A stretch of DNA of 64,000 nucleotides, taken from the NCBI RefSeq assembly GCF_002356355.1, contig NZ_AP018052.1, forward strand, positions 124,001 through 188,000, read 5' to 3'. A program made the translations under genes and the position numbers. Source of the stretch: Thiohalobacter thiocyanaticus (GTDB lineage: Bacteria; Pseudomonadota; Gammaproteobacteria; Thiohalobacterales; Thiohalobacteraceae). Of the stretch, positions 29,732-40,255 are shown in pieces; position 1 is the stretch's first letter, and the number at the start of each line of letters is the position of its first letter. The notes under the pieces were generated by a model. It saw nothing but the letters and a program-made list of their open reading frames with translations. It did not search any database and had not been told where the DNA came from.

Positions 29732-30172
29732 TCATACAGATTTTACTAGTTGATCGATACGCTCAGAAACTGCCTCAAGGTCTTGTTTAATTTCGTGTTC
29801 CCAGACATGTACGACCCGCCAGCCCATCGCTCTCAACGTTTGGTCAACCTCTGCGTCTCTCCGGATATTGCGCGCAATCTTGGCAGCCCAGTATTCCTGA
29901 TTGGTCTTCGGCATAGTTCCATGCAGAGGGCAGCCATGCCAAAAACAGCCGTCCACAAACACCACAATCTTTCGCTGCGTAAAGACTATGTCGGGGTGCC
30001 CCGGGAGCTGCAGGTGGAGCCTGTATCGCAATCCTCGCTGCCAAAGAGCGCGCCTCAATGCCACCTCAGGCCCTGTGTTGCGTTGCTTTACTCGGCCCAT
30101 GAGCCGGCTCCTTTCCGGAGTGGTCTTCAACGCTGACCGCTTCTTGGGCGCTCCTTTCTTTCTCTTGTACAA
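29732..30172 (-). CDS. vsr: Very short patch repair endonuclease Vsr
   Basis: 146 aa if the TTG at 30172 is used. An ATG at 30100 would cut off the conserved TPERSRLMGRVKQRNTGPE segment, so a non-ATG start upstream is more likely. Vsr nicks next to T in T:G mismatches that arise when 5-methylcytosine deaminates. Family landmarks: PGHPDIVFTQRKIVVFVDGC with the catalytic Asp in PDIVF, FWHGCPLH (zinc ligands) and WRVVHVWEHEI. The cytosine methyltransferase it would serve is at the other end of the same island. Divergent from the sigma-factor gene, with about 75 bp between. Confidence 0.88.
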   Translation of the reverse strand: MYKRKKGAPKKRSALKTTPERSRLMGRVKQRNTGPEVALRRALWQRGLRYRLHLQLPGHPDIVFTQRKIVVFVDGCFWHGCPLHGTMPKTNQEYWAAKIARNIRRDAEVDQTLRAMGWRVVHVWEHEIKQDLEAVSERIDQLVKSV

Positions 30173-30178
30173 TCTCGC

Positions 30179-30207
30179 TTGGCCTATTATTCCCGGTCGA
30201 TTAGTAT
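30179..30207 (+). promoter_or_regulatory. Candidate promoter of the sigma-drmA-drmB operon
   Basis: TTGGCC (30179-30184), a 17-bp spacer and TAGTAT (30202-30207), about 40 bp before the sigma-factor ATG, in the short divergent region with vsr. Match is moderate. Confidence 0.35.
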
Positions 30208-30247
30208 TCAGGGTAACGCACGCAAATGGCAAATAGGGCAATAAGGA

Positions 30248-31486
30248 ATGCCAGGGACAGAAATCACCACTTCCGAAGCAGAGGATTCCTCAAAAACCCA
30301 AGAGCGCGCGCGTCAGGCTGCTGAGGCACTGATTGACGACTATCATCGCCAAGGTGGGTGCCTTGAATTAGCGCAAGTAGAGCGAATACTGGACCGAAGG
30401 GCGCTTGATTCGGATGAGTGTCAATACGTCTATGAATACCTCGAAGAGAAAAACATTGACATTCTGCTCCCTGAAGATGAAGAAGACGAAGACGATGACT
30501 TAGACGAAGAAGAAATCTCACTCTACGATTCCACGAAAAATATTAAAACCAGTTCACCGATACTAGATTGGCTCCAGCCCGTTTCCCGCGCGGCGCCCTT
30601 GCTGACACCGGAGCAGGAGGTAGAGCTAGGCCGCCAAATTGCTTTAGGACGAATCGTCCAAGCCGAAAGTGACGTCCAAAGCCCCTCAGTCACCCCCCAC
30701 GGTCGATTGATGATCGTTCGTGCCGAACAAGCGCGTGTTCGCATGATGTTAGCGAATCTCCGTCTTGTCGTGAGCATTGCAAGGAAGTATCTAGGAGGCT
30801 CTGGTCTAGATATCGATGACTTAATCCAGGAGGGTGTAATCGGACTCATGTCTGCGGTCGAAAAGTTCGATCACACACTAGGCTACCGATTCTCTACCTA
30901 CGCAACCTGGTGGATCCGACAAGCGATAACCCGCGCGATCGCCAACACCGGAAGAACTGTTCGATTCCCCGTTCATATTGACATTAAAGTACGTAGGTTA
31001 CGACGGGCTGCTCGCTGGTTACGTCACATTAATGATGGTCGCCGGCCATCCCTATTCGAACTCGAACAGGAGCTTGCGTGGGATCGCGCCACGATCAAAG
31101 CTATTTGGGATCTTGCTGACACCTATGCGGTTTCAATCTACGAAGGTGAAGAAAGGGACGACCGAACATCGATCATTGAGTCGCTCACAAGCGACGAACC
31201 CGGTCCGGATGCCGCTCTTGAGGAACGCGAACGCTCTGATTATTTATATCAATTGCTCGAAGGACTCACTCCTCGTGAGAAAGAAGTACTGGCACTAAGG
31301 TACGGACTTGACACGAATCAAGAGTGGACTCTCGAAATGATCGGCCAGAAACTCGGGGTAACGCGCGAGCGCATTCGACAGATCCAAAACAAGGCCATCG
31401 AGAAGCTTTCGCGCAGCGCAAAGCGGGAAGCCAATGAACTCGACGCCAGTTTATCAAAAGCCATAACCTCGCCGGAATCCCACTAA
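30248..31486 (+). CDS. RpoD-like sigma-70 factor encoded in a defence island
   Basis: 412 aa with the full primary-sigma layout. Residues 20-75 resemble region 1.1 (LIDDYHRQGGCLELAQVERI), followed by a very acidic linker (DEEDEDDDLDEEE, 77-89). Region 1.2 is near 115-137, region 2 near 165-243 with KFDHTLGYRFSTYATWWIRQ (-10 recognition), region 3 near 245-300, and region 4 near 337-395 with TLEMIGQKLGVTRERIRQIQ (-35 recognition). Much shorter than host RpoD, lacking the long non-conserved region. It ends 15 bp before the DrmA-like helicase gene, so it is the leader gene of that operon. A sigma factor is not part of described DISARM loci that I know. Confidence 0.9.
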   Translation: MPGTEITTSEAEDSSKTQERARQAAEALIDDYHRQGGCLELAQVERILDRRALDSDECQYVYEYLEEKNIDILLPEDEEDEDDDLDEEEISLYDSTKNIKTSSPILDWLQPVSRAAPLLTPEQEVELGRQIALGRIVQAESDVQSPSVTPHGRLMIVRAEQARVRMMLANLRLVVSIARKYLGGSGLDIDDLIQEGVIGLMSAVEKFDHTLGYRFSTYATWWIRQAITRAIANTGRTVRFPVHIDIKVRRLRRAARWLRHINDGRRPSLFELEQELAWDRATIKAIWDLADTYAVSIYEGEERDDRTSIIESLTSDEPGPDAALEERERSDYLYQLLEGLTPREKEVLALRYGLDTNQEWTLEMIGQKLGVTRERIRQIQNKAIEKLSRSAKREANELDASLSKAITSPESH

Positions 31487-31501
31487 GTATCGAGTACGGA
31501 C

Positions 31502-34500
31502 ATGGAAATCTACGAAGCTGCCGAGCGGTTTATAGGATGGATGGAACGACGGGTAGTAACAGCTGCCCGCGGCGACAACTTCCAAGAATTAGATGTGGAG
31601 CCATCTGGTAAGTTTTGGCTGGGTCGTTTGGCGTCGGAAGAATACGTTGAACTAAACAAGCTGGGAGAGAGAGGCGAACGCCTTGCGCCTTGTGCAATAG
31701 GAATTCGCCTACGACCCATGGGCCAGGGACACCTTAGGTTTTCCGTAAAAGTTTCGTTCAGTGTATGGCTCAAAGAGGATGACGGTAGATGGAGGAAGCA
31801 CGGCCCCGTCAATGAAACGATTTCCGTCTCATTGCCGCTCGACGATGAAACAAGGGAAAAAACCTTCGGCCGCGACATTCTAGCCCAAGCAGCGACCAGA
31901 GCGACTGGAGAGGCAGGATACATGCCCGAAATCCGCACAGAAGTGGTTTCTTTGCCCGGGGCACCTGATGAACTCGTTGTAAGCTTGGTCAATGCTACGC
32001 CAAAGGAAGTAGCCGCTCTGTCAGATGTAAACCTCTTCGAGTGCTGGATTGAAATCGACGGCATTGAAACGACTCCGTACGCACTAGAGGCCCTCCCCGA
32101 CTCCTTCCGATATAACCGAGACATACCTGCATATGGGATCAATTGTGGAATAGAGACGCGTTCTCCCGGAGTATTCCGCACCACCGATGTGGTCTCGGCG
32201 GAAAAAAGCAGGCCGCAATACTGGTCAGCGCCTACAGATCAACCCGATTTCTCCTTCGAGACACTTTCGACGAACCCGCTTATTCCTGCACGGGCCTTAT
32301 TGGAGGCCTTGAGCGCATGGGGCGAAGCATCATGGAGCGCCGAAAGCCTGGATGAACGACAACATGTTCATGAATGGACCAGTGAGATGCGGTCTCAGGC
32401 AGACGGCGAAGCCAATCAATTCAAGCACGAACTGGACAGGCTACGCGAAGGCATTGAGCTCCTTGAGACTGATGCGACACTGGAAAGAGCATTTCGCCTC
32501 GCAAATCGATCCATCAAGTATTCGTCCTCGGGAAAGTATGAGGGTTGGCGCCCATTTCAGCTGGCTTTTCTTCTGTCAAACCTTTCTTCAATCGTGGATT
32601 CTAAGCAGGAGCCGGAAACAGCCGATATTGTTTGGTTCGCGACTGGCGGGGGCAAGACCGAGACATATCTCGGATTGATTGTCACTGCTGCACTGTACGA
32701 TCGTCTCACTGGTAAGCTCTCAGGTGTCACCGCTTGGAGCCGTTTCCCATTGCGGATGCTGTCACTGCAGCAGACCCAGCGTTTCGCAGATGCTATAGCT
32801 GGGGCGGAACTGGTACGTCGCGAAGAGAACATCCCGGGCGACCCATTTTCCGTGGGGTTCCTTGTTGGACAAGGGGCGACTCCGAACAGAGTTCGTCCGG
32901 ATCCACCCGCAAGCGACCCAGTTGATCCTGATGACCCGAACATGCCGGCCCGGTATCAGGTACTCTCTAAATGCCCATTTTGCCACCAAGATTCGATCCA
33001 AATGGGATTTAATCGGCGATCTTGGAAGCTCGATCATCGCTGTACGAACGACACTTGCGCCTGGGGCCACAATGCGCTCCCCTTCTATGTGGTAGATGAA
33101 GAAATTTACAGATTTCTTCCTACTGTCATCGTTGGCACGTTAGACAAAGCCGCATCGATATCTATGCAGGCCGCCATGCGCGGCCTCGTAGGCGCACCCG
33201 CCGGCAAGTGCTCTATCCAAGGCCATGGATACACCTATGCGCCACGAAGCAGTAGACCGAAGGGCTGTTTAGTTCCGGGATGTCGCGCTGAATCAGAAGC
33301 TCTAGACCAGGCGCCAGAACGCTTTGGCCCGACATTCCGTTTGCAGGACGAACTCCATTTGCTCCGAGACAGCCTTGGTGCCGTGGACTCGCATTACGAA
33401 GCCCTGTATGACGACCTACAGCAATCGATCTGCGGGCGAAAACCGAAAATCCTGGCGTCTTCGGCGACGCTAACGGGGTACGAAAAACAAGTGGATGTAT
33501 TGTATCGCCGAAAGGCGAGGGTTTTTCCGCTACCGGGGCCCTCGACGGACGAGGGTTTTTGGACCTCTGCATCGAATAAACTCATGAGACGCTATGTCTC
33601 CTTGGCGCCACGAGGCGTGACACTTGAATACGCGGTCGACAGGACTCTAACCGAGCTACAGCTCGCGATCAGAGAGTTCATCGACAACCCCGGCCCAATA
33701 TGCGACGAGATCGGCATTGAACGACGATTTGTTGATCAACTCATTCTAATCTACGGGACAGACGTAGTTTACGGGAATAATTTGCGTGACCTGGATGCGG
33801 TGATGCGCTCGCTTGAAACCCAGGTCCGCGTAGGAGAGGACAAGACCGTCAAGACCGCATCGTTGACCAGCAAACTTCCCTTTGACGAGGTCAGAAAAAC
33901 GCTTTCACGTCTCGAGCAACCTGAGACGGACTTTGAAGATCGCCTACATGTAATCACAGCATCATCAATGATGTCACATGGCGTCGATATTGAACGTCTC
34001 AATAAGATGGTCATGCTCGGGTTACCGCTAGGAACGGCGGAATTTATCCAAGCGACGGCTCGTGTCGGACGAACTTGGCCAGGGCTTGTAATCGTGATCC
34101 CGAAAATGGCGAGAGAACGGGACGCAGGGGTATATCGGTCTTTTGGAAAATTTGTCGAACAAGGCGACCGATTCGTCGAACCGATACCGATCACGCGGCG
34201 GAGTAAACGGGTCCTCGAACGCACAGTATCGGGACTTGAACTTGCTCGTATATTGGCAATACACGAACCAGAAGCTAATGGGTCTCTGACAACGGTCGCG
34301 AAGCTCCGTGAGTTCGAAGCTAAAGGCGACATTACCCGCGAGCACGAATTGTCTTCACTCGTTCGAATGCTTCAGTTGAGCGAGGCGCTTGACCTCCCCT
34401 TAAAAAATGAACTCGAAGCTTGGATTGACGACTTTTTCCACAACCTCCGCGATCCTGGCGGCACGTTCCGTTACCCGTCTGACCTTTCCCCGACAGGGGA

Positions 34501-34564
34501 TCCAATGCTTTCACTCCGAGATGTCGAAGAACAAGTCCCCGTCTATGGAGAGGAACTGGGATGA
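31502..34564 (+). CDS. drmA: DISARM-type helicase, DrmA-like
   Basis: 1020 aa. SF2 helicase motifs: Walker A FATGGGKTETYLG (residues 379-391), Walker B variant QDELHLL (615-621), ASSATL (652-657), and motif VI QATARVGRTWPG (850-861). A four-cysteine zinc site lies at 491-519 (CPFC...C...C). The N-terminal 350 residues are a long non-helicase region, as in DrmA. The DELH form and the adjoining DUF1998 gene point to DrmA, the helicase core of the DISARM anti-phage system. Its stop overlaps the drmB-like start (ATGA, 34561-34564). Composition is clearly AT-richer than the core genes. Confidence 0.85.
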   Translation: MEIYEAAERFIGWMERRVVTAARGDNFQELDVEPSGKFWLGRLASEEYVELNKLGERGERLAPCAIGIRLRPMGQGHLRFSVKVSFSVWLKEDDGRWRKHGPVNETISVSLPLDDETREKTFGRDILAQAATRATGEAGYMPEIRTEVVSLPGAPDELVVSLVNATPKEVAALSDVNLFECWIEIDGIETTPYALEALPDSFRYNRDIPAYGINCGIETRSPGVFRTTDVVSAEKSRPQYWSAPTDQPDFSFETLSTNPLIPARALLEALSAWGEASWSAESLDERQHVHEWTSEMRSQADGEANQFKHELDRLREGIELLETDATLERAFRLANRSIKYSSSGKYEGWRPFQLAFLLSNLSSIVDSKQEPETADIVWFATGGGKTETYLGLIVTAALYDRLTGKLSGVTAWSRFPLRMLSLQQTQRFADAIAGAELVRREENIPGDPFSVGFLVGQGATPNRVRPDPPASDPVDPDDPNMPARYQVLSKCPFCHQDSIQMGFNRRSWKLDHRCTNDTCAWGHNALPFYVVDEEIYRFLPTVIVGTLDKAASISMQAAMRGLVGAPAGKCSIQGHGYTYAPRSSRPKGCLVPGCRAESEALDQAPERFGPTFRLQDELHLLRDSLGAVDSHYEALYDDLQQSICGRKPKILASSATLTGYEKQVDVLYRRKARVFPLPGPSTDEGFWTSASNKLMRRYVSLAPRGVTLEYAVDRTLTELQLAIREFIDNPGPICDEIGIERRFVDQLILIYGTDVVYGNNLRDLDAVMRSLETQVRVGEDKTVKTASLTSKLPFDEVRKTLSRLEQPETDFEDRLHVITASSMMSHGVDIERLNKMVMLGLPLGTAEFIQATARVGRTWPGLVIVIPKMARERDAGVYRSFGKFVEQGDRFVEPIPITRRSKRVLERTVSGLELARILAIHEPEANGSLTTVAKLREFEAKGDITREHELSSLVRMLQLSEALDLPLKNELEAWIDDFFHNLRDPGGTFRYPSDLSPTGDPMLSLRDVEEQVPVYGEELG

Positions 34565-36273
34565 AGGAACAGCGTAGTTCTAGTCAAATTCTATTTGGCT
34601 TCTTACCCGAGCAGACTGTTGACCTGAAAGGGGGCGTTTGGAAGGTAAAAGAGTGGCGTACCCCAATGCTGAGAACTGAGGTGGACTCAGAAAGCTTGCG
34701 TCGCGAGCTGATCCGTCAAGCGATGCCTTGGCACAACGCAGGCATGGACGGGCAGTTCGTTGAAAACCTGCTGCGAGGCTGGGGCGTTAGAGTATACTCA
34801 GTAGACAAAAGCAACGGGGTAAAGGTTGAGCCGTTTCCGCGACTCTGGATGTGCAAGTCATGTAGACGGCTACATCGGTCTGCCGACACACGGTGCCCGT
34901 GTGGATCGCCAGGTCGTTTCGGACAGCTCCCATTTGTTGGATTCCACGATAAATGTGGAAACCTCAAAGCACCCTGGATCAGAAGATGTCCAGAGCATCA
35001 ACAGGTCCGCGTAAATTGGCCAGGAACCGCATCGTCCTCCGAGATAGTTTTTGATTGTCCGGTTTGCAACACGAGATTGCAAAAAGGGTTTGGCCCTGCT
35101 CGATGCGACTGCGGCGACGGGTTTCTTTCTTTTAATGTACACCGCTCTTCTGCCGTCTACACGCCAAAGAGCGTGGTGATAGTCAACCCACCTTCACAAG
35201 ATAAGATTAACAAGATTACGCGGGCTGGCGGGCCGCCAAGGGCACTCGATTGGGTTCTCGACGGAATGCGATCCACCAGCATCGACGATGCCGCGAGCCT
35301 CGACTCCTTGCGCCAACAGTTGCTTGAGAGCGGACTGCCCGAAAAGGTAGTGGAACAGATGCTTGCAACGGCAGAACAGTCTGGCGAGGTTAAGTCAGGA
35401 GGCCCAGGCTCGCAGCTCTCGGCGACCGCCCGTGAGGAAGCCGAGAATCAGGCGGTGACTATCGCTTTGGCATTTTCTGAATCTCGTGGAAGGGTAGAAG
35501 ACCTAATCAATGCAACGGACCCGGCTTCCGAGTTAGGGGCGCTTTATCGCGACCAATATCGCTTGGCAATGAAACAGGCGGGCGTGATTTCAGTGGATTT
35601 AGTAGAGAAGTTTCCCGTAATGACAGGAAATTTCGGCTACTTGAGAGGCGATGGTAGCCCGGAAAAAAGCCGTCTAATGCCTTTCCGACGCGGCGCATCA
35701 AGAGATTATGTTGTTTATGGCGAAATTGCGCAGACGGAGGCGCTATTCGTAAGACTGGATCCGTTAAAGGTACTCAAATGGCTCAATTCGAAAGGCCATC
35801 CTATCGCTTGGAGCGAGGATCTCACACAGGCTCACTTGAATATATTGGAGGCCACCAGGCTCCCAGCGCTTGACGAGAATCCTGCCGAATGCGACGTGGG
35901 CGCCGACTTATTAACGCTAATACATACGTTTACCCATCGGTTTATTCGGATTGCCGCAGTATATGCAGGGATCGATCGCGATGCTTTGTCTGAGTTACTT
36001 GTTCCCTTGCATCTCGGGTTCTTCGTCTATGCTGCTGCGCGGGGAGATTTCGTACTGGGCGGCCTACAAGCGGTATTCGAAACAGAACTCGACAAACTCT
36101 TGCATGCGTTCGTACATGAAGATCATCGGTGCGCACTAGACCCGGGTTGCATCAATTCTGGAGGGGCGTGCATGGCATGCCTCCACTTGGGGGAGCCTTC
36201 GTGTAGATATTTCAACAGGTTCTTGGACCGGACGACACTGACAGGAAAAGACGGCTACTTATTTTTAGTTTGA
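34561..36273 (+). CDS. drmB: DUF1998 protein, DrmB-like
   Basis: 570 aa. Zinc-binding cysteine clusters in the first third (C98/C101 with C112/C114, C166/C169 with C182/C184), a variable middle, and a C-terminal DUF1998 domain (about 440-570) with DLLTLIHTFTHRFIRIAAVY, LHLGFFVYAAARGDFVLGGL and the closing cysteines CALDPGC and CMACLHLGEPSC. DUF1998 proteins pair with large helicases in DISARM (DrmB) and Druantia. Translation is coupled to the DrmA-like gene. The next gene is convergent; no DrmC (phospholipase-D-like) gene follows, unlike classical DISARM. Confidence 0.85.
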   Translation: MKEQRSSSQILFGFLPEQTVDLKGGVWKVKEWRTPMLRTEVDSESLRRELIRQAMPWHNAGMDGQFVENLLRGWGVRVYSVDKSNGVKVEPFPRLWMCKSCRRLHRSADTRCPCGSPGRFGQLPFVGFHDKCGNLKAPWIRRCPEHQQVRVNWPGTASSSEIVFDCPVCNTRLQKGFGPARCDCGDGFLSFNVHRSSAVYTPKSVVIVNPPSQDKINKITRAGGPPRALDWVLDGMRSTSIDDAASLDSLRQQLLESGLPEKVVEQMLATAEQSGEVKSGGPGSQLSATAREEAENQAVTIALAFSESRGRVEDLINATDPASELGALYRDQYRLAMKQAGVISVDLVEKFPVMTGNFGYLRGDGSPEKSRLMPFRRGASRDYVVYGEIAQTEALFVRLDPLKVLKWLNSKGHPIAWSEDLTQAHLNILEATRLPALDENPAECDVGADLLTLIHTFTHRFIRIAAVYAGIDRDALSELLVPLHLGFFVYAAARGDFVLGGLQAVFETELDKLLHAFVHEDHRCALDPGCINSGGACMACLHLGEPSCRYFNRFLDRTTLTGKDGYLFLV

Positions 36274-36486
36274 TGTTCTTTGAAAGCTAACGCCGGTATT
36301 TCTTTACTTGGAGCAAAGGCGCTCTAAGCTACAGAACCGTTATTATCCAATAGAGATTAATAGCGAGCTGTTCCATGGGAAGGAGCTGCCGTTGAACACG
36401 AGCGCAATAGACGTCGCCACGTATAGGGCTCTATCCGAGAGAGGACGGATTACTAAGTCACCGAGATCCTTCGTTCAGATAGCGTT

Positions 36487-38109
36487 CTATTTCCAGCCGA
36501 TGGCCTTTCGCATACCAGGAGAAGAAAGAACAAAAAGCAGGCTTTTGGCTCGGCTCATGCCCACATAAGGCATAGACAGCTCGCATGCTGAATCATCATT
36601 ATTAGTGCTTGCAAGCACCAATATCACTGCATCGGACTCAAGGCCTTTAAATCGCTTAATGGTCTCTGCCACAACACCGACCTTGCCGTATTCTGTAAAC
36701 GAATACTCACCAATTCCGATCTCCCTCAGGCTTTCAATATATGTTTTGTTATCGCTGAGCACGGTGATTTGATCGGGACGAAGTCCTTCCTCGTACAATA
36801 GTCGTTCCACGACCTGCTCTACAAGAGCCGTACTTCCGGAGCCCGGGCGATAATCGTAGTGAATCGCGGGAGGGCCATCGATACCTCGCGTCTTGATTGA
36901 CTCACCGAAAACCCCCGATACGCGCTCCGCGATCTGATTTGTGTTTCTACAGTTGGTATCCAACGGAAATACAGGCCAATGATCTGGTATTCCCCAGTTA
37001 CGCCCATACATTTCTTGGTGCGAATCGGCAAAGACGTAGAAAGGCGTATTTTCATCATCCGGAGTCATCATGGACAATGCCGCGATCCAATCTCGCGAAA
37101 AGTCCTGACCCTCATCCACAATGATAGCATCGAATCGGGTACCATTAGCCTGCGCTGCTGCAACGAGTGATTCAGGAGCGTCGATCTCCCACCATAAATC
37201 ATCAGGCTCTGGAGGAGGGCTCTTGGAGGCGGCCGCCATCTCGGAAAAGCAAAGCGAGTGGAAGGTCGAAACGGTTACATTCGGGTCGCCATCGAACTCC
37301 TCGTTAAGCCACCGAGACAATAGGGTATTGTAGCAAACCAGTAGAACCTGGTGACCTTCCTGAGAGAACAACTTCGCACGATGAGCTGCAAGCAGAGTTT
37401 TTCCTGTTCCTGCACCTCCAGTCACTAGGGCTTTCCGAATTTTTCTTAACATACTGAAAGCATGGACCTGCTGATCCGTAAGCTGGAGGAGACCTCTCTC
37501 TGAATCCGTAACGTCATCTTTGAGCCGGCGTTTGACGGTTACTGTTGGCGCAAGCAACTGCCGGATTTTCTTCATAGTCGCCGGTGCAATATGAGCGTTT
37601 TCCTTCCAGTGATTGAGTAGTCTTTGAACCATCTCAGCTGGATAATCCAAGTCGTTCTTACTCCACACAATCTCCAGCGGACCATAGGTACCGATCGATT
37701 TATCGACAGTCGCACCCGGAAAGCACACACCGTGGAGGATAGGTACCGTGTTCGTCGGGATAGAGAGTTCCTTTAGGTAATTCAAAAGCGCATATTTTGA
37801 TGCGGTCGCTTGGGTGAATGGGTTCTTTATGCTTTCCAGCGTTCCTTTCTGGCTATGGCGTGAGAACCATTGTCCGTCTTCGATTATTATTTCCTCACCG
37901 CCCTTAACTTCAATGACGATAAGCCCGTGTTCAGGGTGCATGAGGATAAAGTCAGCCTCTCCATCCCCTTGGCGTCCGTTACGGAGAGATTGCCAAGCGA
38001 CTGAGTGAAAAATTGTCCACTCATCATTAAGACGTTCTAGGGACTCCCTCACGAGGATCTCGGAATAGGGAGTACGAGGCTGCACTGAAGCTGGGAGAAT
38101 TCTAGCCAT
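36487..38109 (-). CDS. NERD nuclease-domain/SF1 helicase fusion
   Basis: 540 aa. The N-terminal NERD domain (about 15-130) carries the PD-(D/E)XK-type residues in EADFILMHPEHGLIVIEVKG (D53, E67, K69). The C-terminal part is a UvrD/Rep-type SF1 helicase: Walker A TGGAGTGKT (230-238), Walker B IIVDEGQDF, LDTNCRNT (motif IV), VVAETIKRFKGLESDAVIL (motif V) and YVGMSRAKS (motif VI). It could unwind and cut DNA. It follows the methyltransferase gene by 35 bp in the same direction, forming a second operon convergent to sigma-drmA-drmB. Possibly the effector nuclease of the system, in place of DrmC. Confidence 0.85.
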   Translation of the reverse strand: MARILPASVQPRTPYSEILVRESLERLNDEWTIFHSVAWQSLRNGRQGDGEADFILMHPEHGLIVIEVKGGEEIIIEDGQWFSRHSQKGTLESIKNPFTQATASKYALLNYLKELSIPTNTVPILHGVCFPGATVDKSIGTYGPLEIVWSKNDLDYPAEMVQRLLNHWKENAHIAPATMKKIRQLLAPTVTVKRRLKDDVTDSERGLLQLTDQQVHAFSMLRKIRKALVTGGAGTGKTLLAAHRAKLFSQEGHQVLLVCYNTLLSRWLNEEFDGDPNVTVSTFHSLCFSEMAAASKSPPPEPDDLWWEIDAPESLVAAAQANGTRFDAIIVDEGQDFSRDWIAALSMMTPDDENTPFYVFADSHQEMYGRNWGIPDHWPVFPLDTNCRNTNQIAERVSGVFGESIKTRGIDGPPAIHYDYRPGSGSTALVEQVVERLLYEEGLRPDQITVLSDNKTYIESLREIGIGEYSFTEYGKVGVVAETIKRFKGLESDAVILVLASTNNDDSACELSMPYVGMSRAKSLLFVLSSPGMRKAIGWK

Positions 38110-38144
38110 ATCCCTTGGGCATGTTGCCTTCCGCAGATGGCGGC

Positions 38145-39242
38145 TCAGCAGATGAGGGCGTCACCGATTTCGCCGATATGTTTTCGCAAGCTCAAACCGA
38201 TCACTTCGCCTAATCGTACGGGCACCGCATTTCCAATCAATCGCCCGACCGTGCGGAATTCTGGTGACTGATCCGACGGGCAGAACTTGTAGTCGGGAGG
38301 AAACGTCTGAAATATTGCGGCTTCTCGTAGAGAGATTGCCCTGTCTTGAATAGGATGACCGAATCGACCATTACCATAGCCATAGCAAAGCGTAGTCATT
38401 GTGGGAGCTGGCAAATCTTCCCGCATGCGCCCGTATACGCTGTAGTACCGCTCGCCCGATTTCCGTTTGTGACAATCGGTTATCAAATTGTCGGGCCAGT
38501 CTGACCAGCTACCGCCTTGGATGGAGTTTTGAATACGTTTCAGATTAATTTCCGAGAGTTTTGCCGCTTTGTGAAGTGCGTCTTCTGAATCTGCCTGCCC
38601 AGCTTTGAGTTCAGGTAACTTGCCAATAGCATCACGCACGGTGACGAATTGCGACGGCTCATGAGTAGGATCTATTAATTTCGGTGAACCCAATCTGGAT
38701 GCGATCAATACCAGGCGATTTCGGCTCTGAGGGATACCATACCGAGGACACTCGAGGACTTGATAGTCGAACTCATAATCAAGCTCTACGAGTGTGGACA
38801 AAAAGTCGTGAAAAACGCGATGTTTTACCAGGTTCGGCACATTCTCCATGGTTACCAGATCAGGGCTGGATTCTCGAATCAAGCGCGCGAACTCCGTGAG
38901 AAGGCTCCACTTATTATCGCCTTTGATCGCCTTATTACCCTGCATGTACTGCGAGAATGGCTGGCACGGGGCGCAACCGGCTAGCAGTGAAACCCCACCA
39001 TCCCATTGCTCGCACAATTCACCCCCAGTCAATAACGAAACATCCCTACTCTCGAAGCGAGCCGGGGCATTGTTTTCTTCATAGGGAAAAGCGCAGGCTT
39101 TATCGAGATCGTAACCAACTCGTACATCTATCCCTGCCGACAACAGGCCGTGAGTGAGGCCACCCGCTCCGCAGAACAAATCCACAGCTCGGATCTGCGT
39201 AGAGGCCTTTTGGCCAGCGGTCAGCTTTTTCTTTTTAGCCAT
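38145..39242 (-). CDS. dcm: DNA (cytosine-5)-methyltransferase
   Basis: 365 aa C5-cytosine methyltransferase. Motif I DLFCGAGGL, motif IV GCAPCQPFS with catalytic Cys93, motif VI ENV (133-135), motif VIII QSRNRLVLIAS, and motif X with RLIGNAVPVRLGEV. The recognition domain lies near 230-290; the site is not predictable. Such enzymes mark host DNA in restriction or DISARM class 2 systems (DrmMII). A Vsr gene at the other end of the island would repair the C-to-T mutations it causes. No separate restriction endonuclease is visible. Confidence 0.93.
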   Translation of the reverse strand: MAKKKKLTAGQKASTQIRAVDLFCGAGGLTHGLLSAGIDVRVGYDLDKACAFPYEENNAPARFESRDVSLLTGGELCEQWDGGVSLLAGCAPCQPFSQYMQGNKAIKGDNKWSLLTEFARLIRESSPDLVTMENVPNLVKHRVFHDFLSTLVELDYEFDYQVLECPRYGIPQSRNRLVLIASRLGSPKLIDPTHEPSQFVTVRDAIGKLPELKAGQADSEDALHKAAKLSEINLKRIQNSIQGGSWSDWPDNLITDCHKRKSGERYYSVYGRMREDLPAPTMTTLCYGYGNGRFGHPIQDRAISLREAAIFQTFPPDYKFCPSDQSPEFRTVGRLIGNAVPVRLGEVIGLSLRKHIGEIGDALIC

Positions 39243-39469: not shown

Positions 39470-39546
39470 TGGCGCGCCCGAAGGGATTCGAACCCCTGAC
39501 TTCCACCTCCGGAGGGTGGCGCTCTATCCAGCTGAGCTACGGGCGC
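39470..39546 (-). tRNA. tRNA-Arg (anticodon CCG)
   Basis: On the minus strand: acceptor GCGCCCG pairs with CGGGCGC, D-arm GCTC-AGCTGGATA-GAGC, anticodon stem CCACC/GGTGG with loop CTCCGGA (anticodon CCG), T-arm AGGGG-TTCGAAT-CCCCT, then discriminator G and an encoded CCA (39470-39472). All stems are intact. It forms the right border of the island; its 3' 16 bases are repeated at 29450-29465. Confidence 0.95.
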
Positions 39547-40128
39547 TAAACGAGTGGTAGTTTATCATGTATGTGGGGAGTCCTGATCGCCCTTGCGGGC
39601 GATACGGGTGGCGCTCACGCGGCTGCGCCGCTTCCCCGGCCCGAACGCAGGCGTTCGGGCGTTCGCCTCTGGCAAGGCCATGTTAAATGGCCTTGCCTTC
39701 GCTGCGCGAATCGCAGCTCACCCAGCTGAGCTACGGGCGCTAAACGAGTGGTAGTTTATCATGTATATGGGGAATCCTGATCGCCCTTGCGGGCGATACG
39801 GGCGGCGCTCGCGCGGCTGCGCCGCTTCCCCGGCCCGAACGCAGGCGTCCGGGCGTTCGCCTCTGGCAAGGCCATGTTAAATGGTCTTGCCTTCGCTGCG
39901 CGAATCGCGGCTCACCCAGCTGAGCTACGGGCGCTAAACGAGTGGCAGTTTATCATGTATGTGGGGAGTCCTGATCGCCCTTGCGGGCGATACGGGCGGC
40001 GCTCGCGCGGCTGCGCCGCTTCCCCGGCCCGAACGCAGGCGTCCGGGCGTTCGCCTCTGGCAAGGCCATGTTAAATGGCCTTGCCTTCGCTGCGCGAATC
40101 GCGGCTCACCCAGCTGAGCTACGGGCGC
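39547..40128. repeat. Three-unit tandem array, 194-bp period, with tRNA-Arg 5' fragments and hairpins
   Basis: The string GCTGAGCTACGGGCGC (tRNA-Arg nucleotides 1-16 on the minus strand) recurs at 39531, 39725, 39919 and 40113, exactly 194 bp apart. Each unit, read on the minus strand, has the tRNA acceptor strand and a complete D-arm (GCTC-AGCTGGGT-GAGC), then unrelated hairpins: an 11-bp stem with loop TTAAC, a 9-bp stem CCCGAACGC/GCGTTCGGG, and ATCGCCC-GCAA-GGGCGAT with a GNRA-type loop. A copy of the tRNA leader (ATAAACTACC...CGTTTA) follows. Units differ by few bases. Open frames inside are not credible. Confidence 0.85.
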
Positions 40129-40202
40129 GGAAACGATGTAGTTTACTGCGCCCGGCCCGCGCGGTCCATGCCGCTGGCCTGTCAGGGATAAACGAACACA
40201 TC

Positions 40203-40255
40203 AGGAGAAGAGTTCCCTCTCCCCTGGTGGGAGAGGGTCAGGGTGAGGGGGCGAG
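40203..40255. repeat. CCCTCTCCC/GGGAGAGGG intergenic hairpin repeat
   Basis: CCCTCTCCCCTGGTGGGAGAGGG forms a strong hairpin followed by a GGTGAGGG tail, a common kind of intergenic repeat. A related hairpin is at 57317-57343. Confidence 0.6.

Follow-up and report, generated by a model that had tools for sequence, protein, structure and literature searches.

Why should an intact tRNA gene be preceded by three copies of its own beginning, each of which runs out into a series of hairpins? This question is raised by a Thiohalobacter locus, which lies in a stretch of 64,000 nucleotides that was analysed as a whole and is called the window here. The gene concerned, tRNA-Arg(CCG), occupies 39470-39546 on the minus strand (ARAGORN; 66.7 bits with the Rfam tRNA model), and three tandem units (39547-40128, minus strand) stand directly 5' of it. 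The reading that we favour, and regard as probable, is that the array consists of a structured and probably mobile module, present three times in tandem, each time within a copy of the tRNA-Arg 5' part, and probably transcribed as part of the tRNA leader.

Anatomy of the array

The initial annotation described a 194-bp tandem array, and TRF bears this out, reporting an array at 39528-40145 with a period of 194, 3.2 copies, a 96% match and no indels. Unit 3 adjoins the tRNA gene (39547-39740), followed outwards by unit 2 (39741-39934) and the outermost unit 1 (39935-40128), all on the minus strand, and each unit contains a match to the covariance model R1 that is discussed below (39636-39727, 57.7 bits; 39830-39921, 61.2 bits; and 40024-40115, 61.0 bits, respectively). 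The units differ pairwise at 4-7 of 194 positions, by transitions only, and a BLAST search of the genome finds the whole 194-bp unit at this locus only.

Every unit begins with nucleotides 1-19 of the tRNA, GCGCCCGTAGCTCAGCTGG, in an exact copy (39722-39740 in unit 3, 39916-39934 in unit 2 and 40110-40128 in unit 1). On the tRNA strand, this copy is followed by GTGAG and by the inner hairpin P2, which includes the hairpin GGCAAGGCCAT/ATGGCCTTGCC (39671-39697, 39865-39891 and 40059-40085 in units 3, 2 and 1; inverted repeats I4, I9 and I5). The foot sequence CGAAC then leads to the hairpin P3 with the arms GCCCGAACGC/GCGTTCGGGC (39639-39660, 39833-39854 and 40027-40048), which is supported by inverted repeat I6 in unit 3 and by the folds of all three units. 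Another hairpin, nucleotides 23-33 of the tRNA, the ATCGCCC-GCAA-GGGCGAT hairpin and the tRNA leader complete the unit. The ATCGCCC-GCAA-GGGCGAT stem-loop had been noted before and is indeed present in all three units (39586-39603, 39780-39797 and 39974-39991; inverted repeats I17-I19). As a whole, unit 3 folds with a predicted energy of -98.1 kcal/mol, compared to -73.4 +/- 4.5 kcal/mol for dinucleotide shuffles (z = -5.4).

Other details of the first description need revision. Specifically, a complete D-arm had been assigned to each unit, whereas the exact tRNA copy comprises nucleotides 1-19 only and the apparent arm arises where GCTCAGCTGG of the tRNA joins the GTGAG of the module. The units were also said to leave the tRNA sequence for hairpins; the hairpins are there, but 11 nucleotides of the tRNA (23-33, GAGCGCCACCC) return later, at 39606-39616 in unit 3, where a common-substring test and comparison with the own tRNA find them exact, and with one change in units 1 and 2. 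Because this segment reappears, the hairpins sit inside a tRNA 5' half that is interrupted in the D-loop. Likewise, the stem said to be kept by a G-T wobble shows that pair in unit 2 on the plus strand, which corresponds to an A.C mismatch on the tRNA strand; true G.U pairs on the tRNA strand occur in P3 of units 1 and 2.

The tRNA sequence in the units is limited to nucleotides 1-19 and 23-33, and ARAGORN and Rfam detect one tRNA at the locus. The possibility that the units are tRNA genes or pseudogenes was rejected, as they hold no recognisable tRNA sequence beyond the 5' part that could fold as a tRNA. Just outside the array, at 40213-40252, lies a repeat of the form CCCTCTCCC...GGGAGAGGGTCAGGGTGAGGG; in another genome (G092), modules are located inside repeats of this kind (L231-L233).

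One covarying module 5' of many tRNA genes

The hairpins of the units are not private to this locus. A covariance search, as suggested in the initial annotation, was performed with model R1 and finds matches in 70 of 369 Gammaproteobacteria genomes at E <= 0.01, often with many copies each. Per-genome copy numbers are lower bounds, as a limited number of candidates was scored in each genome. The model was built from tRNA-Arg cases and includes six bases of the D-loop, so some bias towards tRNAs is inherent, although the matching of fragments to their own tRNAs is unaffected by it. In a sample of 150 genomes from the phylum, all seven carriers belong to the same class, Gammaproteobacteria. The simpler sequence pattern GCGCCCGTAGCTCARYTGGGYGAR occurs in 55 contigs of the GTDB collection and in 17 of the 369 Gammaproteobacteria genomes, where a reversed-pattern control finds none. 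In most of the cases extracted with this pattern, another tRNA start follows 73-316 nt further on; this does not hold where a contig end truncates the unit, nor for a single partial copy before a protein gene (L067 5227).

The consensus of the module can be written as GG|GYGAR-P2-YGARC-P3-GCYGG and contains a foot with tandem G.A pairs. With no constraint on the third base of the GA?C anchor, sequences with GGGTGA have GAAC and those with GGGCGA have GAGC; the few exceptions (L067, L071 and L094) were judged by eye to be errors of parsing. This association indicates a foot composed of G-C, Y-R, G.A, A.G and R-Y, with the tandem G.A inside the helix. Covariation of the stems scores 0.417 in 18 hand-anchored sequences, compared to 0.137 after shuffling and at most 0.090 after sliding the alignment. 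For 85 distinct covariance-model matches, many of them at other tRNAs or at none, the score is 0.461, compared to 0.112 shuffled and at most 0.073 slid, and doubly changed cells number 227 compared to 55, in an alignment that was fitted to the model and is biased towards it. Given how large the effect is, and that the hand-anchored sequences agree, there can be little doubt that the covariation of P2 and P3, as read from these alignments, is real.

Compensatory changes can also be observed in place between closely related genomes. The sister species T. thiocyanaticus Hrh1 (G002; locus L079) carries one unit, 89% identical, in the same place and beside the same neighbour gene, and relative to the window two pairs of the P2 inner stem are changed on both sides, from A-T to G-C and from G-C to C-G. 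At tRNA-Ser, the same two species differ on both sides of a P3 pair (C-G to A-T). A switch of template from one hairpin arm to the other may yield such changes without selection; as such, they show that the structure is maintained, which is not necessarily a sign of function.

The association with tRNA genes is specific to each gene. Among the best matches of 30 genomes, 26 have a tRNA downstream in sense, 25 of these within 300 nt, and the tRNAs are of the types Arg, Thr, Phe, Met, Lys, Trp and Gly. In 24 of the 26, the module directly follows a copy of the first 18 nt of its own tRNA with at most three mismatches. The remaining four best matches comprise two contig ends, one rng-like protein gene and one tRNA that is broken after the anticodon arm (G055). 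Further loci with a 5' copy of their own tRNA involve Ile, His, Ser and others, and where long-type units of other genomes resume tRNA sequence, this segment fits the own tRNA better than other arginine tRNAs (9.83 of 12 compared to 7.60 of 12). Thus, one homologous covarying structure is found 5' of many tRNA genes and elsewhere in Gammaproteobacteria, and nearly every tRNA-borne copy has the first ~19 nt of that tRNA before it and the intact tRNA after it.

At least one more 5' module is present in the same genome as the array, at tRNA-Ser(CGA) (L238 996-1069; G000:C1:1331495-1331568), where it sits in a copy of the tRNA 5' part that reaches the anticodon stem; 3' of the same gene lies RtT-like sequence (by eye). 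Modules are also found in antisense 3' of some tRNAs, namely tRNA-Met of G029 and G021 and tRNA-Arg of G088 and G092. In G029, seven tandem 5' units of tRNA-Met are accompanied on the opposite side by antisense modules that bear copies of the tRNA 3' end (L199 1391-2341 and 2511-2728).

Rfam contains no family for the module at gathering or relaxed thresholds, and the module is not described in the literature searched, which is weak evidence as most subscription journals were not covered. The closest known layout is that of RtT RNA (RF00391), which consists of tandem structured repeats with tRNA 3' ends and is known from E. coli tyrT. Each forms tandem structured repeats with some sequence of the adjacent tRNA, presumably within the transcript of that tRNA, and both show, by eye, a GAUGAG/GYGAG...CGA foot beside a hairpin. 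RtT, however, stands 3' of its tRNA with the tRNA 3' end, whereas the module stands 5' with the tRNA 5' end (nucleotides 1-19) and is also found away from tRNAs. The RtT model has no match in the window at the gathering threshold and none at E <= 0.1 at the module loci L238, L188, L196, L208, L211, L199, L203 and L231. With this mirror-image layout and no RtT match, the module is not classed as RtT. RtT matches do occur in the same genome, as a tandem pair 3' of tRNA-Gln(TTG) and a single copy 3' of tRNA-Gln(CTG) (G000:C1:2994980-2995271 and 3091917-3092058; L239, L240), with a weaker match at G000:C1:1397273-1397417.

Dispersal of the module and the origin of the array

How did one structure come to stand before so many different genes? 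Copies away from tRNAs are informative in this respect. G092 has at least 38 module matches at tRNAs, protein genes and intergenic sites, and thus harbours a non-autonomous repeat of less than ~300 bp dispersed over unrelated sites, as in MITE-like or Rickettsia palindromic elements. In this genome, near-identical tail-to-tail doublets of ~260 bp, flanked by ACAGGATT...AATCCTGT, are dispersed (L188, L189, L191, L192, L194, L197, L198). One module lies within a uvrC-like gene, apparently in frame by eye, as in Rickettsia palindromic elements (L190 1214-1293), and in another case the GGGTGAG of the module provides the TGA stop codon of an rpmJ-like gene (L195, by eye). The same motif forms the TGA stop of a rimK-like gene at a site common to two Pseudomonas-like genomes (L248, L249). 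Two modules of G319 are preceded by 78-nt copies of the beginning of an rng-like gene, and further ones by copies of the beginnings of other genes; inverted doublets, near-identical dispersed copies and gene-start copies are seen in these two genomes, G092 and G319. Two inverted modules lie 2.1 kb apart in G092, and the open reading frames between them, one of which reads by eye as a LysR-type regulator, show no evident transposase.

The order of gene-start copy, module and intact gene at some protein genes, too, favours insertion with duplication of the upstream target over a process specific to tRNAs. According to this model, the module would insert after a GG in the D-loop, ~19 nt from the start of an RNA gene, and insertion would duplicate the beginning of the gene, so that the gene itself stays intact. 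The direct repeats measure 19-25 nt at tRNAs and 78 nt at the rng-like gene, and this variable length is unlike a classical transposase with a fixed stagger. Units would then multiply by unequal recombination, which may account for the rise from one unit to three in this species. As the module is found with the host tRNA's own start before many different tRNA genes, it looks like an undescribed mobile structured repeat. Mobility is inferred here from the dispersal across sites, since a clean empty site, sought in relatives of the same genus, was not found and decayed remnants only were seen. A unit is present as well in another genus of the same family (G003), and the tRNA-Ser locus in T. thiocyanaticus has lost the 5' copy and kept P3 with its compensatory change. 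The initial annotation had named as a refutation the lack of a transcript and of homologues elsewhere, with copies that decay freely in relatives; decay is what the remnants show, but the absence of homologues is clearly false.

Among the origins offered at the outset, insertion of a small non-coding element into the 5' part of the tRNA is the best supported, in view of the single covarying module before many tRNAs, each with its own 5' copy. Tandem duplication, also proposed, accounts for the three near-identical copies here, given the one unit of the sister species, but not for the module beside different tRNAs. In its strict form, this explanation would do without any mobile element and invoke duplication of the tRNA 5' region by hairpin-induced slippage, followed by neutral decay. 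The transitions-only differences between units and the decaying remnants in relatives agree with it, and in G035 a tRNA-Arg follows a copy of its own first ~43 nt without any module (L044; G035:C3:147847-148006), so a partial 5' duplication of a tRNA can arise on its own. Slippage, however, cannot place one homologous module beside Thr, Phe, Met, Lys, Trp and Arg tRNAs together with a 5' copy of the respective tRNA, nor can it disperse the module into protein genes and doublets. It is therefore an unlikely account overall, disfavoured for the family and possible for the step from one copy to three.

If the module moves, what moves it? ERIC, RUP, Correia and the Rickettsia palindromic elements are MITE-like repeats (PMC2229807), and the module resembles the Rickettsia elements and MITEs as a non-coding palindromic repeat of ~100-200 bp that is dispersed, also within coding and RNA genes. 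It differs in its preference for tRNA 5' ends, in copying 19-78 nt of a gene start, in single modules that lack terminal inverted repeats, and in that no TA ends were seen; terminal inverted repeats are confined to the tail-to-tail doublets of G092. No transposase family is common to the carriers: IS110-type transposases (PF02371), reverse transcriptases (PF00078) and Y1/RAYT transposases (PF01797) were each rejected as a shared driver, as each is missing from several of them. A REP/REPIN-type repeat moved by a RAYT is thus very unlikely, even if the module is likewise a hairpin-based palindromic repeat that forms inverted doublets and many genomes of the class have Y1 transposases (225 of 369). 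A 97% complete genome with at least 17 module matches at E <= 0.001 has no Y1 match (G021), Y1 occurs in 48 of 70 carriers compared to 177 of 299 other genomes, no GTAG-hairpin REP signature was established, and the module is larger and structurally richer than a REP. Least likely of all, and barely credible, is that the units are attachment-site remnants of a genomic island or phage that used tRNA-Arg. Fragments beside an intact tRNA are the usual mark of integrating elements, and a DISARM-like defence cluster does lie 3' of tRNA-Arg; the island is, however, on the opposite side of the gene from the units. Moreover, the fragment depends on the host tRNA and the module stays constant, which is opposite to what a fixed attachment site would show, and for this reason an integrase attachment site was rejected. 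Phage collections gave no matches, the plasmid matches listed span at most ~110 bases over the tRNA or its edge, and no integrase-bearing element bounded by units was seen.

The cluster itself extends over 29732-39242 of the window and comprises Vsr (29732-30241), a sigma-70-like protein matching MzaA (30248-31486), DrmA (31502-34564), DrmB (34561-36273), a NERD helicase (36487-38109) and a DrmMII-type cytosine methylase (38145-39242).

Possible leader transcription and Csr-type hairpins

The position of the units suggests what may become of them in the cell. A weak promoter-like site, TGGACC-N17-TAAACT, can be read outside unit 1 (40140-40168, minus strand), at a score below the threshold of a consensus scan. 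The single unit of T. thiocyanaticus has TGGACC-N17-TACACT outside it and no such site in its inner leader, and no terminator-like sites were found in the array. Of 42 loci, 22 have the higher promoter score in the outer flank and 12 in the inner leader, a difference that is not significant (p = 0.15). With the outermost promoter-like site on one side of the units, the tRNA on the other and no terminator-like site in the array, it is plausible that they are transcribed as the tRNA leader, in line with the structured transcript from the tRNA promoter that the initial annotation offered as an option. Transcribed in this way, they would form part of pre-tRNA-Arg, from which RNase P would release structured leader RNA, up to ~194 nt for each unit, as a possible 5' analogue of the RtT trailer RNA. 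External transcribed spacers of tRNA operons, such as 3'ETS-leuZ, are known to act as sponges of small RNAs. The module would share with 3'ETS-leuZ the origin of a possible regulator from a tRNA precursor, and differs in its position on the 5' side and in being repeated, mobile-looking and highly structured.

Might the leader RNA have a selected function, rather than being the by-product of a mobile repeat? Leader units could fold and bind a protein, and the paired hexaloops of a short subtype could bind CsrA/RsmA as tRNA-linked sponges, the window array being derived, with another partner or none left. An ANGGAX hexaloop directly on a stem is the published high-affinity form of Csr/Rsm sites (PMC4005645), and the RsmA consensus is CANGGAYG (PMC7705225). 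In 48 of 85 modules, P3 has a stem of at least 4 bp that ends in a loop of exactly ANGGAN, compared to 0.3% of P3 sequences after shuffling. Among units of the short subtype (below ~165 nt), P3 has an ANGGA loop in 20 of 24 cases and a second such hairpin is present in 18 of 24; the corresponding counts in the long subtype are 3 and 1 of 29. The seven-unit tRNA-Met array of G029 alone has 14 CsrA-type hexaloop hairpins, and the serial hexaloops of short-type modules resemble those of CsrB/RsmZ (PMC4005645), from which the module differs by its tie to tRNA genes, its dispersal and the window units without such loops. The in situ compensatory changes also speak for selection, although template switching can mimic them. 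Against a selected small RNA stand the lack of any ANGGAX hexaloop on a stem in the window units, the loss or degradation of units in relatives, and modules in protein genes and in antisense 3' of tRNAs, where the RNA would not form in sense. We therefore consider this explanation doubtful as an alternative to a mobile repeat.

The mobile-repeat reading can itself accommodate the hexaloops. A family that inserts after the first ~19 nt of tRNA genes and copies their start may thereby place pairs of high-affinity CsrA/RsmA hairpins in leaders, so that arrays would act as tRNA-linked Csr sponges and the window array would be a derived form. As the window units have no hexaloops, this idea is put forward tentatively, as a possibility for the family that we would not yet bet on, and with less confidence still for the array itself.

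The present analysis brings to light a strongly covarying module that occurs in about a fifth of the sampled Gammaproteobacteria genomes, is tied to tRNA 5' ends and has no entry in Rfam 15. The module illustrates how a repeat can settle in an essential RNA gene without harm, namely by copying the start of that gene. Together with the 3' RtT repeats, it suggests that tRNA genes of Gammaproteobacteria are flanked by structured repeats on both sides. Additionally, optimal CsrA-type sites are present in more than half of the modules, so that it becomes testable whether tRNA transcription and the Csr/Rsm system are linked; if the sponge idea is true, the output of such tRNA-linked Csr sponges would follow growth rate.
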